This document shows positions 38,607-46,080 of a stretch of DNA of 64,000 nucleotides, piece by piece. The number at the start of each line of letters is the position of its first letter. Positions within the stretch are counted from its first letter, which is position 1. The notes under the pieces were generated by a model. That model made no database searches, was not told the origin of the DNA, and was given only the letters and a program-made list of their open reading frames with translations. Position numbers and translations under genes: made by a program. The DNA is from Bradyrhizobium septentrionale (GTDB taxonomy: Bacteria > Pseudomonadota > Alphaproteobacteria > Rhizobiales > Xanthobacteraceae), in the NCBI RefSeq assembly GCF_011516645.4, contig NZ_CP088285.1, positions 9,008,501 through 9,072,500 of the forward strand, in the 5' to 3' direction.

Positions 38607-38693
38607 GCGGACGTGGCGGAACTGGTAGACGCAAGGGACTTAAAATCCCTCGATGGCAACGTCGTGTGGGTTCGACTCCCACCGCCCGCACCA
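38607..38693 (+). tRNA. tRNA-Leu (anticodon TAA)
   Basis: An 87-base tRNA with encoded CCA. The D arm is gcg/cgc around gaactggtaga. The anticodon arm is aggga-cttaaaa-tccct, giving TAA. A long class II variable arm (cgatggcaacgtcgt) follows, then the T arm gtggg-ttcgact-cccac. The acceptor pairs gcggacg with cgcccgc, leaving an A5-C68 mismatch. Confidence 0.95.
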
Positions 38694-39839: not shown

Positions 39840-41459
39840 CTACTCGGACTTGTCGATATTCCAGAAGATCGGCGTCGCCGGTCCGTCGAGGACACCGGTC
39901 AACGACTTCCGCCAGGCACTCGGAACCGTGTACTGGCCGAGCGGAATGTAGATCACCTGATCGTAGGCCTCGGTCTGGATGTCAGCGGCGATCTTCTTCT
40001 TTTCCTCGGCCGAGCCAGCGCGCGCGAACTTGTCGCGCAGCTCCTCGATCTTCGGATCTTCGGCCCAGCCGAACCAGCCGCCGTTCTTGCCACGACCGGT
40101 GATCGACGCGTTGACGATCGGATCGGCGACGTCGGCTGCGACCCAGTTGGTGAAGAACATATTCCAGCCGCCTTCCTTCGGCGACTTCTGGCTGGCGCGG
40201 CGGGTCACGACGGTCTGCCAATCGGTGGCCTGGAAATCCACCTTGAAGCCGGCATCGCGCAACTGCTGCGCCACGACGATCGGCTGGGCCTTCAGCGTGG
40301 TGACATCGCCCGGCCCCATGATCACGACGGGCGTGCCGTCATAGCCGGACGCGGCAAGCGCCTTCTTGGCTTCCGCCATGCCGCTGCCCTTCACCAAGGT
40401 CTCGGCACCGACGTCGGTCTCCAGCGGCGTGCCGCAGACGAAGAAGGCGCCGCAGATCTTCTGGTACTTGGCATTGCCGACCAGCGCGTCGAGCACGTCC
40501 TTCTGGTTCATCGCCAGGAACGCGGCGCGGCGTACCTTCGGATTGTCGAACGGCGGATAGAGGAAGTTCATGCGACCAAGGGTCTGGAAGCCGAACTTGT
40601 TGAGCACGTCGATCTTGAGATCCGGATTGGCTTCGAGCACCGGCAGCATGTCAAACGGAAGCTGTTCCATGAAATCGATGTCGCCGGACTGCAGCGCGTT
40701 CACCGCGGTCTGCGCATCGGCCATCGTGATCCACTCGACGCGGTCGACCTTGACGACCTTGCCGCCTGCGGTCCAGCTCGCCGGCTCCTTGCGCGGCACG
40801 TAGTCCTTGTTCTTCTCATAGACCGCCTTCACGCCCGGCTGGAATTCCGCCTGCACGAACTTGAACGGTCCGGATCCGATCTGTTCCGGGATCGGCTTGT
40901 CCGGCGGCGTCTCGGCGAGACGCTTCGGCATCATGAACGGTACACGCGACGACGGCTTGCCGATCGATTCGAGCACGAGGCCGTAGGGCTCCTTCAGCTT
41001 CAGCGTGATGGTCTTGGCGTCGGTCGCCTCCAGGCTCGCGACGAAGTCCATCAGCTTCTGGCCCATGCCGTCGACCTTGCCCCAGCGCTGCAGCGAGGCG
41101 ACGCAGTCTTCCGCGGTGACCGGCGCGCCGTCGTGCCACTTCAGGCCGTCGCGCAGCGTGAACGTATAGGTCAGCTTGTCGTCGGAGACCTTCCAGTCCG
41201 CCATCTGCGGCTGGATCTTGAAGTTGGAATCCGTCGCCAGCAGCGTGTCATAGATCATGTAGCCGTGATCGCGGGTGATGTAGGCGGTGGTCATGATCGG
41301 ATCGATGACGCGCAGATCCGAGTGCATCACCGCGGTGATGGTCTTGCCCGCAGCCATCGCCTGCGGTGCAAATGACAATTCCTGCGGCGCGAACGACAGT
41401 GCAAGCGCCGTCAACGCAGCCGCGAGCGTGCGGTGCTTCCAACGCGAGATAGGGAACAT
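39840..41459 (-). CDS. ABC transporter substrate-binding protein, family 5 (DppA-like)
   Basis: A 539-residue periplasmic peptide-binding protein. aggagag precedes the ATG. The Sec-type signal peptide contains a small internal duplication, LSFAPQ-E-LSFAPQ, before AMAAGK. Family features include LRDGLKWHDGAPVTAEDC and IGSGPFKFV. It is a full-length paralogue of the protein at 3677-5287. It is divergent from the M20 peptidase gene (265 bases between starts) and lies near dppBC-DF at 46-50 kb, so it is the likely binding component of that transporter. Ligands may be peptides or amino acid derivatives. Confidence 0.92.
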   Translation of the reverse strand: MFPISRWKHRTLAAALTALALSFAPQELSFAPQAMAAGKTITAVMHSDLRVIDPIMTTAYITRDHGYMIYDTLLATDSNFKIQPQMADWKVSDDKLTYTFTLRDGLKWHDGAPVTAEDCVASLQRWGKVDGMGQKLMDFVASLEATDAKTITLKLKEPYGLVLESIGKPSSRVPFMMPKRLAETPPDKPIPEQIGSGPFKFVQAEFQPGVKAVYEKNKDYVPRKEPASWTAGGKVVKVDRVEWITMADAQTAVNALQSGDIDFMEQLPFDMLPVLEANPDLKIDVLNKFGFQTLGRMNFLYPPFDNPKVRRAAFLAMNQKDVLDALVGNAKYQKICGAFFVCGTPLETDVGAETLVKGSGMAEAKKALAASGYDGTPVVIMGPGDVTTLKAQPIVVAQQLRDAGFKVDFQATDWQTVVTRRASQKSPKEGGWNMFFTNWVAADVADPIVNASITGRGKNGGWFGWAEDPKIEELRDKFARAGSAEEKKKIAADIQTEAYDQVIYIPLGQYTVPSAWRKSLTGVLDGPATPIFWNIDKSE

Positions 41460-41724: not shown

Positions 41725-42855
41725 ATGAACCCAGCCAATCTTCCCTTTGATTCCGAAGCGATGTTGCAGGGCCTGCGCGGCTGGGTGGAATGCGAGAGCC
41801 CGACCTGGGATTCGGCGGCAGTCGAACGCATGCTCGACCTTGCCGCGCGCGAGATGGCGATCATGGGTGCGACGATCGAGCGCATCGCGGGACGCCAGGG
41901 CTTTGCCGGCTGCGTCCGCGCCCGTTTTCCTCATCCGAAGCGAGGCCAGCCCGGCATCCTGATATCAGGTCATCTGGACACCGTGCACCCGGTCGGCACC
42001 ATCGAGAAGCTGAAGTGGCGGCGCGAAGGCAACAAATGTTTCGGGCCCGGCATCTTCGACATGAAGGGCGGCAACTACCTGTCGGTCGAGGCGATCAGAC
42101 AATTGGCGCGCGCCGCCTTCACGACGCCGCTGCCGATCACGGTGCTGTTCACACCCGATGAAGAGGTCGGCACGCCGTCGACGCGCGACATCATCGAGGC
42201 AGAAGCCGCGCGCAACAAATACGTGCTAGTGCCGGAGCCCGGCCGTCCGAATAACGGCGTCGTCACCGGCCGCTACGCGATCGCGCGCTTCAATCTGGAA
42301 GCAACAGGCAAGCCGAGCCATGCCGGCGCGACGTTGTCTTCGGGTCGCTCCGCGATCCGCGAGATGGCGCGGCAGATCATCGCCATCGACGGCATGACCA
42401 CCGAGGACTGCACGTTCTCGGTCGGCGTCGTGCATGGCGGCCAATGGGTCAATTGCGTTGCGACGACCTGCACCGGTGAAGCGCTCAGCATGGCCAAGCG
42501 CCAGGCCGATCTCGATCGCGGCGTCGAGCGCATGCTGGCGCTGTCCGGCACCGCCAACGACGTGACCTTCAACGTGACGCGCGGCGTCACCCGCCCGGTG
42601 TGGGAGCCGGATGCCGGCACCATGGCGCTCTATGAAAAGGCAAAGGGCCTCGCGGCGGCGATGGGCCTCGATCTGCCGCATGGCAGCGCCGGCGGCGGCT
42701 CGGACGGCAACTTCACCGGTGCGATGGGCATCCCCACGCTCGACGGCCTCGGCGTTCGCGGCGCCGACGCGCATACGCTCAACGAACATATCGAGGTCGA
42801 CAGCCTCGCCGAGCGCGGCCGCCTGATGGCGGCGCTGCTGGCGACGCTGGACTGA
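41725..42855 (+). CDS. M20-family metallopeptidase (glutamate carboxypeptidase-like)
   Basis: A 376-residue di-zinc exopeptidase of the carboxypeptidase G2/ArgE group. Metal and catalytic motifs are in order: ISGHLDTVHP, GPGIFDMKGG, TPDEEVGTPST, PEPGRP and a final His in DAHTLNEHIEV. There is no signal peptide, so it works in the cytoplasm on imported substrates, removing C-terminal glutamate or a similar residue from peptides or N-acyl amino acids. aagagag precedes the ATG at 41725. It opens the plus-strand part of the peptide-use locus. Confidence 0.9.
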   Translation: MNPANLPFDSEAMLQGLRGWVECESPTWDSAAVERMLDLAAREMAIMGATIERIAGRQGFAGCVRARFPHPKRGQPGILISGHLDTVHPVGTIEKLKWRREGNKCFGPGIFDMKGGNYLSVEAIRQLARAAFTTPLPITVLFTPDEEVGTPSTRDIIEAEAARNKYVLVPEPGRPNNGVVTGRYAIARFNLEATGKPSHAGATLSSGRSAIREMARQIIAIDGMTTEDCTFSVGVVHGGQWVNCVATTCTGEALSMAKRQADLDRGVERMLALSGTANDVTFNVTRGVTRPVWEPDAGTMALYEKAKGLAAAMGLDLPHGSAGGGSDGNFTGAMGIPTLDGLGVRGADAHTLNEHIEVDSLAERGRLMAALLATLD

Positions 42856-42951
42856 CATCGATTTGCACTGCACAACACGTTGGCACTGCCGGATCGAAAT
42901 TTAGCCTTGTCCAATTTTCAGGCTTCGCCTACGGTCCGGCCGTCCAACACG

Positions 42952-43177
42952 ACGATGCGGGAGAGATCGAAGCGACAACATGCGTGTTGTTGGCTTCGGC
43001 GCCGACGGAGCAACCGCCCCGGAAACTCTCAGGCAGAAGGACTGTATCGTCAGGACGATCTGGAGAGAGACGGACATGGCCGCACATCAAGGGCCGTGAC
43101 GTCCACCGAAGGGGATAGTTCGCTATTGGGCTCCGACCCGATGCGGATCAAGCTCTCAGGTACCGTGACAGATGGGG
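42952..43177 (+). promoter_or_regulatory. Tandem glycine riboswitch (two aptamers)
   Basis: Aptamer 1 (about 42952-43050) has GGGAGAGA, GCGCCGACGGAGCAA and GGAAACTCTCAGGCAGAAGG, closed by ACGAT/ATCGT. Aptamer 2 (about 43056-43177) has TGGAGAGAG, CACCGAAGGGGATAG and CTCTCAGGTACCGTGACAGA, then tgggg. These are the conserved blocks of the tandem glycine riboswitch. The downstream 43178-43212 stretch can fold (cgccga/tcggcg with ccggt/accgg inside) and may be the expression platform before the ATG at 43239. There is no clear T-run, so control may be at translation. Confidence 0.93.
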
Positions 43178-43238
43178 CGCCGACGCCGGTTTCACCGGTG
43201 GTTCGGCGACTCTAACCCACGGGAGCCTGAAGACCATC

Positions 43239-44546
43239 ATGCCTCACATTGCGATCATTGGCGCCGGCATCACCGGCGTGACGACGGCCTATGCCCTGCT
43301 CGAACGCGGCTACCGGGTGACTGTCCTCGACAGGCATCGCTACGCCGCGATGGAAACCTCGTTCGCCAATGGCGGACAACTCTCCGCCAGCAACGCGGAA
43401 GTCTGGAACAGCGCCGCAACCATCCTCAAGGGTCTGCGCTGGATGCTCAGGAGCGATGCGCCGCTCTTGATGAACCCGAAGCCGAGCTGGCACAAGTATT
43501 CCTGGATCAGTGAGTTCGTCGGCAACATCGGCCGCTATCGCAGCAACACCATCGAGACCACGCGGCTCGCCATTGAGGCGCGCAAGCATCTGTTCTCGAT
43601 CGCACAGCGCGAGAACATCGCCTTCGATCTCGAACGCCGCGGCATCCTGCACGTCTATCACGACAAGGCCGCCTTCGAAGCGGGCCTGCGGGTCAACACG
43701 CTGCTGCAGCAAGGCGGGCTCGACCGCCGGCCGGTGACCGCTGACGAAATCCGCAGCCTCGAGCCCGCGCTGCAGACGGCCTGCTATGGCGGCTTCTTCA
43801 CGCCGTCGGACGCGACCGGCGATATCCACAAGTTCACCCGCGGGCTTGCCGACGCCTGCATCCGCCGCGGCGCAGCCTTCATCCACGAAGCCGATGTCGA
43901 TGCGATCGCGCGCGGCGACGATGGCTTCCGTGTCAGTTGGAACGCTGCCGCTTCGCATGATGCCGACTTCGCGACGCGACATGAGTTGCAGGCCGACGGG
44001 ATCGTGATTTGCGCCGGCGTCGCGAGCCGCCACTTCGCTGGCATGCTCAACGACCGCGTCAATGTCTATCCGGTGAAGGGTTATTCGATCACGGTGCAGC
44101 TCGATGCGCCGCAAAGCCGCGACGCTGCGCCGACCGTAAGCCTGCTCGATGAAGCTGCGAAAATCGTCACCAGCCGGCTCGGCGCCGACCGCTTCCGCGT
44201 CGCCGGCACCGCCGAGTTCAACGGCTTCAACCGCGACATTCGCGCCGACCGGATCCAGCCGCTGGTGGACTGGGTGCGACATCATTTCCCAGGGATCGAC
44301 ACGTCGGCGATCGTGCCGTGGGCGGGCCTGCGCCCGATGATGCCGAACATGATGCCGGTGGTTCGCGCCGGACGGATTCCGGGCGTGTTCTACAATACGG
44401 GCCACGGTCATCTCGGCTGGACGCTCTCGGCCGCGACGGCGCAGATGGTAGCAGGGGCGATCGATGATTGGAGCGACCTCGACACGCCTTCAATGGTGCC
44501 GTCGCAGGTCGATACGACCGAGACCACCCACGCAGCTTTCCCCTAA
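43239..44546 (+). CDS. FAD-dependent amino acid oxidoreductase (DadA / glycine-oxidase-like)
   Basis: A 435-residue DAO-family flavoprotein. The N-terminal FAD motif is GAGITGVTTAYALLERGY (from residue 8), followed by TSFANGGQLSASNAEVW and the C-terminal NTGHGHLGWTLS segment typical of D-amino acid dehydrogenase small subunits. It oxidatively deaminates an amino acid to an oxo-acid and ammonia. The tandem glycine riboswitch just upstream implies that glycine is either the substrate or the signal. The neighbours hydrolyse peptides and amides, so it may deal with released glycine or D-amino acids. The following 235 bases (44547-44781) hold only a doubtful 39-codon frame. Confidence 0.9.
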   Translation: MPHIAIIGAGITGVTTAYALLERGYRVTVLDRHRYAAMETSFANGGQLSASNAEVWNSAATILKGLRWMLRSDAPLLMNPKPSWHKYSWISEFVGNIGRYRSNTIETTRLAIEARKHLFSIAQRENIAFDLERRGILHVYHDKAAFEAGLRVNTLLQQGGLDRRPVTADEIRSLEPALQTACYGGFFTPSDATGDIHKFTRGLADACIRRGAAFIHEADVDAIARGDDGFRVSWNAAASHDADFATRHELQADGIVICAGVASRHFAGMLNDRVNVYPVKGYSITVQLDAPQSRDAAPTVSLLDEAAKIVTSRLGADRFRVAGTAEFNGFNRDIRADRIQPLVDWVRHHFPGIDTSAIVPWAGLRPMMPNMMPVVRAGRIPGVFYNTGHGHLGWTLSAATAQMVAGAIDDWSDLDTPSMVPSQVDTTETTHAAFP

Positions 44547-44781
44547 TTATCCGGCCGGAGAGGAAGAATATGAGCGTATTTGCGTGTGGCCAAGTCGGAA
44601 TTCGCCGAGAAACGCCGCGTGACTAGGACTAGCGTCACAACGGGGAAAAGCGCTTCATCTCGGGAGGGGACAATGCGCATTGGGGTGGCGGGCACGCATG
44701 ACATTGCGCCGACTTCGTGCGCCGTCTTTCCAAGACAGTCAATGCTCAGGCTTCTGCGCCGGGCTCCACGAAAGGCGCGAC

Positions 44782-46080
44782 ATGACAACTGAGACGTTGA
44801 CCAAGCCGGATCAGATTGCCGCAGAGCTGTGCGCGGCCGTCGATCGAAACTTCGACGATCAGATCGCGTTCCTGTCGCGCATGGTGCAGTTCCGCAGCTT
44901 GCGCGGACAGGAAGCGCCGCAACAAGTTTGGCTGGCCGAGCAGTTCGCAAAGCGCGGCTACGACGTCGATGTGTTCAGCCTTGCGGACGTCAACCTGATG
45001 AGCCATCCGAAGGCTGCGCCAATGGACGGCATCGATCTTGCCGGATCGCAGCAGGTTGTTGCGACGAAGAACAGCAAAGGCAGCGGGCGCAGCCTGATCT
45101 TGCAAGGTCATATCGACGTGGTGCCGGAGGGGCCCGCTGACCTTTGGGACCAGCCGCCGTTCGCAGGCGCCGTGCACGACGGCTGGATGTTCGGGCGTGG
45201 CGCGCAGGACATGAAGGCCGGTGTCTCGGCAATGATCTTCGCGCTCGATGCTATCCGCGACGCCGGATATGCCCCGGGCGGGCGCGTCCATCTGCAGACC
45301 GTGACCGAGGAAGAGAGCACCGGCAACGGCGCATTGTCCACTCTGATGCGCGGCTATCGCGCCGACGCCTGCCTCATTCCCGAACCGACCGGACACACGC
45401 TGACGCGCGCCCAGGTCGGCGCCATCTGGTTTCGCCTGCGCGTGCGCGGCACGCCGGTGCATGTCGCCTATTCCGAGGCCGGTACGAGCGCCATCCTGTC
45501 GGCGATGCATCTGGTGCGCGCGTTCCAGAATTACACCAAAACGCTCAATGCCCGAGCGCTCGACAACAGCTGGTTCCGCAGCGTCAAGAATCCGATCAAG
45601 TTCAACGTCGGGATCATCAAAGGCGGCGACTGGGCCAGTTCGACCGCGGCCTGGTGCGAGCTGGATTGCCGGCTCGGTCTCCTGCCGGGCGAGACACCGC
45701 GAGAGGCGATGCGTGGCATCGAAGAATGCCTGACTGAGGCGCACAAGGCCGACGACTTCCTGTCCGACAATCCGGCTGAGCTCGTGTGGAGTGGTTTTCA
45801 GGCAGACCCGGCGGTGTGCGAGCCCGGCAGCGAAGCGGAAGCAGCTCTGTCTGCCGCCCATCACTCCGTGTTCCAGGCTCCAATGCAGGAGCGCCTATCC
45901 ACGGCCGTCAACGACACCCGCTACTATCGTGTCGACTACGGCATCCCTGCCCTTTGCTATGGTCCTTACGGCATCGGCCCGCATGCGTTCAACGAACGCG
46001 TCGAGCTCGACAGCCTTCGCAAGACAACGCAGAGCATCGCATTGTTCGTCGCCAACTGGTGCGGCGTGATGAGAGTGTGA
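44782..46080 (+). CDS. M20-family metallopeptidase (ArgE/DapE/ACY1-like)
   Basis: A 432-residue cytoplasmic di-zinc deacylase/peptidase. Motifs are LQGHIDVVPEGP, GRGAQDMKAG, TEEESTGNG, PEPTGH and GPHAFNERVEL. It is an ArgE/DapE-type enzyme acting on N-acyl amino acids or dipeptides. The start MTTETLTKPDQ with aaagg upstream is preferred over a basic upstream extension. It lies between the riboswitch-controlled oxidoreductase and the dpp genes. The 269 bases after it contain no gene. Confidence 0.9.
   Translation: MTTETLTKPDQIAAELCAAVDRNFDDQIAFLSRMVQFRSLRGQEAPQQVWLAEQFAKRGYDVDVFSLADVNLMSHPKAAPMDGIDLAGSQQVVATKNSKGSGRSLILQGHIDVVPEGPADLWDQPPFAGAVHDGWMFGRGAQDMKAGVSAMIFALDAIRDAGYAPGGRVHLQTVTEEESTGNGALSTLMRGYRADACLIPEPTGHTLTRAQVGAIWFRLRVRGTPVHVAYSEAGTSAILSAMHLVRAFQNYTKTLNARALDNSWFRSVKNPIKFNVGIIKGGDWASSTAAWCELDCRLGLLPGETPREAMRGIEECLTEAHKADDFLSDNPAELVWSGFQADPAVCEPGSEAEAALSAAHHSVFQAPMQERLSTAVNDTRYYRVDYGIPALCYGPYGIGPHAFNERVELDSLRKTTQSIALFVANWCGVMRV

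Follow-up and report, generated by a model that had tools for sequence, protein, structure and literature searches.

Why should an RNA that senses glycine stand before a gene annotated as a D-amino acid dehydrogenase? The question arises in a 64,000-nucleotide stretch of Bradyrhizobium septentrionale (contig NZ_CP088285.1, positions 9,008,501 to 9,072,500 of the forward strand; hereafter the window, numbered from its first letter), in which a tandem glycine riboswitch directly precedes the gene for a 435-residue flavin adenine dinucleotide (FAD)-dependent amino acid oxidoreductase, hereafter the flavoenzyme. Our computed evidence comprises both aptamers, a covarying helix between leader and linker (P0), a link between riboswitch and gene that is conserved and specific to the clade, covariation of the 3' side of aptamer 2 with the region of the ribosome-binding site (RBS), and the presence of the unit in genomes lacking gcvP, the glycine decarboxylase gene. 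On this basis we lean, with modest confidence, towards a riboswitch that turns on translation of a DadA-like flavoenzyme whose substrate is most likely glycine; its oxidation would provide a means of disposal that does not depend on glycine cleavage.

A tandem glycine riboswitch paired with a flavoenzyme gene

The initial annotation described two glycine aptamer cores in series directly before an FAD amino acid oxidoreductase, and matches to Rfam RF00504 and Pfam PF01266 bear out both parts of this description. In the RF00504 covariance search, aptamer 1 (42948-43054; this and all further features of the leader and gene lie on the plus strand) scores 59.6 bits (E 8.3e-10, model positions 1-94) and aptamer 2 (43058-43173) scores 39.8 bits (E 1.4e-4, model positions 9-86), both above the gathering score of 32 bits; in a search of the single genome, aptamer 2 reaches 46.2 bits over 43050-43181 in window coordinates. 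A short linker joins the aptamers, and within it GGACG (43053-43057), the 3' strand of P0, can pair with CGUCC of the leader (42941-42945), the 5' strand, as covariation and a constrained fold both indicate. Since this leader strand belongs to the element, its start lies about 11 nt 5' of that first assigned. The two strands change jointly in relatives (CGUUC/GAACG, UGUUCC/GGAACA), and the mean energy of own pairs is reached by 0 of 20000 permutations among 28 representatives of 73 usable leaders, against 5960 of 20000 for a control segment further upstream. Folding the full leader (42935-43262) with aptamer 2 enforced yields P0 without further constraint, together with a P1 of ten pairs in aptamer 1; P0 is missing from the free fold of the whole leader. 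Leader-linker pairing is a feature of many, not all, tandem glycine riboswitches. The window RNA is an ordinary member of the known family, and is predicted to sense glycine.

Compared with the tandem glycine riboswitch of gcvT operons, with which it shares two adjacent aptamers of the same family and the leader-linker pairing, the window copy differs in preceding a flavin amino acid oxidoreductase rather than a cleavage gene or transporter, and in having its platform built around the RBS of the flavoenzyme gene. The view that the riboswitch does not precede gcvT holds for this copy and not for the genome, in which the only other tandem glycine riboswitch (in 10.4 Mb) does precede gcvT (PF01571/PF08669). 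The flavoenzyme open reading frame (ORF; 43239-44546), of the NF009074/PRK12409 family, begins 65 nt 3' of aptamer 2.

The association extends well beyond the window. A protein scan of named genomes, from which the best 80 loci were retained (62-94% identity), recovered alpha-, beta- and gammaproteobacteria, with the nearest named relatives of the window genome in Bradyrhizobium. We searched these loci with a covariance model (R1, from alignment A1) trained on 34 aptamers of 17 of the 80 loci together with the window's two; since RNAalifold of the pooled aptamers yields only 7 pairs, this model is mostly one of sequence. It places an aptamer just upstream of the flavoenzyme gene in 79 of the 80 loci, with no further match at E 0.01 across their 1.26 Mb, and a regular expression independent of the model selects the identical 79. 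The sole locus without a riboswitch is in a metagenome-assembled genome (MAG) of Amaricoccus (L097). An independent RF00504 search finds the glycine family in 75 of 75 distinct searchable genomes (G168 falls in both sets; L043, L065 and L082 were left out). Even draws from class and phylum add a riboswitch in 27 of 28 further family members, with L171 as the exception, and L115 likewise carries one before its flavoenzyme gene; some redundancy is present, L150 and L102 being one gene and L050 and L052 identical. The initial link by position between riboswitch and oxidoreductase is therefore kept in 79/80 and 27/28 relatives. In contrast, outgroup loci of the DAO family (L116-L143, 30-47% identity, not typed as DadA) contain the riboswitch in 0 of 28, the best match (L117) having E 0.62. 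In a tree of 66 proteins, the riboswitch-bearing rows group with two that lack a riboswitch, 42 in all (support 94/80); the riboswitch label requires 3 changes compared with 20.6 in shuffles. Riboswitch and flavoenzyme are a conserved, clade-specific unit.

Predicted control of translation

How would glycine binding reach the enzyme? The proposed switch lies between the 3' side of aptamer 2 (43162-43173), which holds the segment CCGUG (43163-43167) beside the 3' strand of P1, and the RBS region CACGGGAG (43218-43225), with its Shine-Dalgarno-like GGGAG at 43221-43225. Without glycine, CCGUG would pair with the RBS and block translation; with glycine, aptamer 2 would close, its P1 (AUCUG 43058-43062 with CAGAU 43169-43173, strands located in the folds) would form, the anti-RBS helix would be lost and the enzyme would be made. 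In free folds of both 43050-43262 and the whole leader, CCGUG pairs with CACGG (43218-43222), the start of CACGGGAG, and P1 of aptamer 2 is unformed; once aptamer 2 is enforced, the CCGUG/CACGG helix vanishes.

In relatives the anti-RBS and RBS regions pair with other letters, ACAGACAG with CUGUCUGG in L070 and ACCGGGAC with GUCCCGG in L076. We compared own with cross pairing by permutation, starting from 110 leaders, of which 16 were dropped where the pattern or a Shine-Dalgarno-like site was not found; 21 representatives stand for the remaining 94, with the near-identical L034 in place of the window. With narrow segments the count is 4 of 20000 permutations, and control segments give 18475 (coding start), 14952 (hairpin arm) and 17666 (aptamer interior), each of 20000; a version with wide segments gives 30 of 10000. 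Because the 3' side of aptamer 2 covaries with the RBS region and their helix is lost on P1 closure, glycine binding should free the RBS, and we infer from these modelled folds that regulation is translational and ON.

The reverse sign, or an action by transcription termination, is very improbable in our estimate. Passages of PMC6944388 describe glycine riboswitches of both signs, which gives such a design precedent; here, however, the competitor of the RBS sits in the aptamer's own 3' side, so that closure should free the RBS, and 42600-43300 contains no terminator-like site.

The G+C-rich hairpin between aptamer 2 and the RBS (43178-43208) was proposed in the initial annotation (as 43178-43212) to be the switch part. 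The hairpin itself is real, yet it is unchanged in four folds, free or aptamer-constrained, while its sequence varies among relatives, and it is the segment before the Shine-Dalgarno site that covaries instead. We reject it as a terminator or switch, given the lack of a terminator-like site, its invariance between folds and a 5' arm that does not covary with the aptamer; it is probably a constant spacer. A second RBS blocker, UCAGG (43156-43160), was also dropped, as it appears in a short-segment fold only; when longer segments are folded, CCUGA (43226-43230) finds its partner in the linker or elsewhere.

Glycine, its rivals and the substrate of the flavoenzyme

What the enzyme oxidises is the harder part of the question, and the strongest argument for glycine, in our view, is the presence of a glycine riboswitch before the flavoenzyme gene in genomes without glycine cleavage. 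Of 29 evenly drawn genomes with the flavoenzyme gene (completeness 96-100%; gcvP scored as PF02347 over its cut-off), 9 are without gcvP, and the riboswitch precedes the flavoenzyme gene in 8 of them. Twelve genomes have a single glycine riboswitch, located before the flavoenzyme gene, and ten of these were used (G185, G190, G191, G195, G196, G205, G209, G214, G219 and G220), leaving out the MAGs G197 and G208; G191 is also a MAG, and G209 and G745 are apparently one genome. In this set gcvP is found in 1/10 (G190) and gcvT reaches its cut-off in 2/10, with two more just under it (224 and 218 against 235.85 bits). gcvP is found in 10/10 control genomes, which carry the flavoenzyme gene and four or more aptamers; as these genomes were chosen for extra riboswitches, which often precede gcvT, they validate the search more than they prove a contrast.

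Because the unit occurs in genomes without gcvP, glycine is favoured as the substrate, and of the two options first offered, that the enzyme uses glycine or that it clears D-amino acids, the former fits better. We infer that the enzyme would oxidise glycine to glyoxylate and ammonia, a disposal route without the glycine cleavage system. The wider proposal, that the PRK12409 'D-amino acid dehydrogenase' family is an unrecognised glycine dehydrogenase or oxidase, forming with its riboswitch a self-contained unit that occurs in varied proteobacterial neighbourhoods, and replacing missing glycine cleavage in a number of lineages (some Methylobacterium, Ancylobacter, Faunimonas and others), we see as evenly poised between right and wrong.

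Family membership leaves room for other substrates. The protein is a DAO-family FAD oxidoreductase (PF01266, E 1.8e-71) with a confidently modelled fold (AlphaFold2 mean predicted local distance difference test score 91.3), and it passes the NF009074 'D-amino acid dehydrogenase' equivalog at 720.1 bits against a cut-off of 494, a name that is an annotation and makes D-amino acid activity a prediction. Membership of ThiO or of classical DadA is rejected, as the curated cut-offs are unmet: against the ThiO glycine oxidase model TIGR02352 (PDB 4ysh, 1ng3, 1ryi) the protein scores only 132.9 bits compared with 250.8, and the nearest other NCBIfam model, DadA NF001933/PRK00711, gives 325.7 bits across almost the full length, under its cut-off of 383. 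In the alignment with ThiO, an arginine of glycine oxidases, which we take to have a functional role, is replaced by His391. Structure searches recover the superfamily and do not indicate the substrate, the neighbours including sarcosine oxidases, dimethylglycine dehydrogenase, iminodiacetate oxidase and a flavin opine dehydrogenase.

A true D-amino acid dehydrogenase, acting on D-alanine or others and switched on at high glycine, e.g., if glycine disturbs D-amino acid pools, would agree with the NF009074 score and with the PRK00711 score, although the latter stays below its threshold. It would also suit the setting of the window gene, whose peptidase and peptide-transport neighbours could plausibly supply D-residues: an M20 peptidase lies on one side, a second M20 gene and then an oligopeptide-type ATP-binding cassette (ABC) transporter on the other, and M81/MlrC, M20 and amidase genes farther along. 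However, a tblastn search with ten window proteins over the 80 loci recovers most of this arrangement in only 30, namely 29 Bradyrhizobium and one Tardiphaga MAG. The locus was not found in the other 50, several of which lie on short contigs where absence is less sure (L090, 3109 bases), and 49 of these 50 keep the riboswitch. The riboswitch tracks the enzyme, not the locus, which is incidental; a tie between glycine sensing and peptide degradation, as initially suggested, is not supported by these counts, and we reject it as the main explanation. A family that carries the glycine riboswitch with few exceptions, in a unit also found without gcvP, points to glycine itself, and we consider a D-amino acid substrate unlikely.

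An N-substituted glycine (sarcosine, an opine or an iminodiacetate-like compound) as substrate, with glycine as product or co-signal, is in our judgement distinctly unlikely. The structural neighbours listed above are compatible with it, as are an octopine-dehydrogenase-domain protein near the flavoenzyme in L093, whose ORF cluster occurs in 4 loci, and a second cluster in 4 other loci, similar as judged by its start only. Sensing of a product would, however, be expected to switch expression off, and the leader looks like an ON switch; moreover, the neighbours in loci without the peptide locus vary and, where scanned in other genera, are mostly unrelated (ORFs were called with a crude caller weighted by third-position G+C (GC3), after a crude length-based caller gave many spurious ORFs).

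Several results weigh against parts of the favoured reading, a glycine-oxidising enzyme switched on at translation. Leaving ligand and tertiary energy aside, the blocked state is favoured by 7.1 or 10.1 kcal/mol, and the shorter constrained fold keeps GG (43222-43223) largely paired. The flavoenzyme sequence fits a D-amino acid dehydrogenase as well. gcvP is present in 20 of the 29 evenly drawn genomes, and the 9/29 count is not set against a baseline of gcvP loss from genomes lacking the flavoenzyme gene. G004 has a glycine riboswitch before a peptide-binding homologue, a hint contrary to the rule that the riboswitch follows the enzyme.

Occurrence in the genus, known targets and neighbouring genes

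We surveyed 146 genomes of the genus, calling the flavoenzyme gene at E ≤ 1e-85 and an extra riboswitch from four or more aptamers. The gene is found in 49 and four or more aptamers in 50; both occur in 48 genomes, aptamers only in 2, the gene only in 1 and neither in 95, an agreement of 143 genomes (Fisher p 5.9e-35, with genomes counted as independent despite relatedness). This concordance is one of co-presence per genome, the position of the extra aptamers before the gene not being established for each of the 48. In G012 (aptamers only) a second gcvT-like ORF, recognised from its translated start only, stands behind the extra riboswitch (L181). G094:C2, the other, retains the riboswitch with flavoenzyme remnants (41-61% identity) lying around an ORF read as a transposase (L204), which seems to interrupt the flavoenzyme copy. 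In G020, the genome with the gene only, no glycine match precedes the flavoenzyme gene (L201). G004:C1 has a further riboswitch, followed by a 49-residue flavoenzyme remnant (L205).

Earlier targets of glycine riboswitches, according to passages of PMC2211319, PMC3766115 and PMC12452182, are gcvTHP, transporters, glcB, serC, sdaA and COG4198 genes, most of them tied to glycine, serine or pyruvate metabolism; where a glycine oxidase is listed in PMC12452182, it stands under thiamine pyrophosphate riboswitches, not glycine. Within excerpts of the open-licence literature, with supplementary target tables outside the scope, no DAO-family target of a glycine riboswitch was found (including PMC12452182, PMC2211319, PMC3766115, PMC1273637, PMC6944388, PMC9495176, PMC7266159, PMC4710047, PMC5760752 and PMC12827605). 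The twelve 'glycine metabolism' orthologs of PMC3766115 (Additional file 5) may include this flavoenzyme gene. What appears new here is that a known riboswitch has a further, conserved class of target, along with a predicted function for an enzyme family. As a riboswitch names its metabolite, a near-constant link to glycine predicts, strongly and at little cost, the function of a family whose only annotation is D-amino acid dehydrogenase. If correct, it would mean that soil and plant-associated Proteobacteria have a second route of glycine catabolism, independent of cleavage, would suggest how genomes without gcvP handle glycine, and would offer a compact riboswitch-enzyme unit usable for glycine-responsive expression.

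Some smaller observations concern other riboswitches and the neighbouring genes. In L202 (G060:C90, 14953-16383, minus strand) a second glycine riboswitch lies about 13 kb from that of the flavoenzyme, and the start of the ORF behind it resembles, by eye, L-serine ammonia-lyase (sdaA), as does that of L188 in G055. L203 (G004:C1, 5557-7170, minus strand) is a tandem glycine riboswitch followed by the gene of a peptide-binding protein 71% identical to the window protein of 39840-41459, with an S58 peptidase nearby. Five loci (L065, L066, L072, L080 and L081) share a recurring neighbourhood with three common ORF clusters upstream, one of the L066 members being an Amidohydro_1 protein; four of the five also have a downstream ORF cluster that looks octopine-type-dehydrogenase-like, judged by its start only. 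Within the window, the M20 peptidase gene between flavoenzyme and ABC transporter (44680-46080) looks like a recent insertion, because a close match (90-92%) occurs in just 2 of the 30 peptide loci (L034 and L062). A tRNA gene (38607-38690, plus strand; RF00005, 55.5 bits) is separated by about 1.1 kb from the minus-strand gene for a solute-binding protein (39840-41459), measured to the 3' end of the latter.
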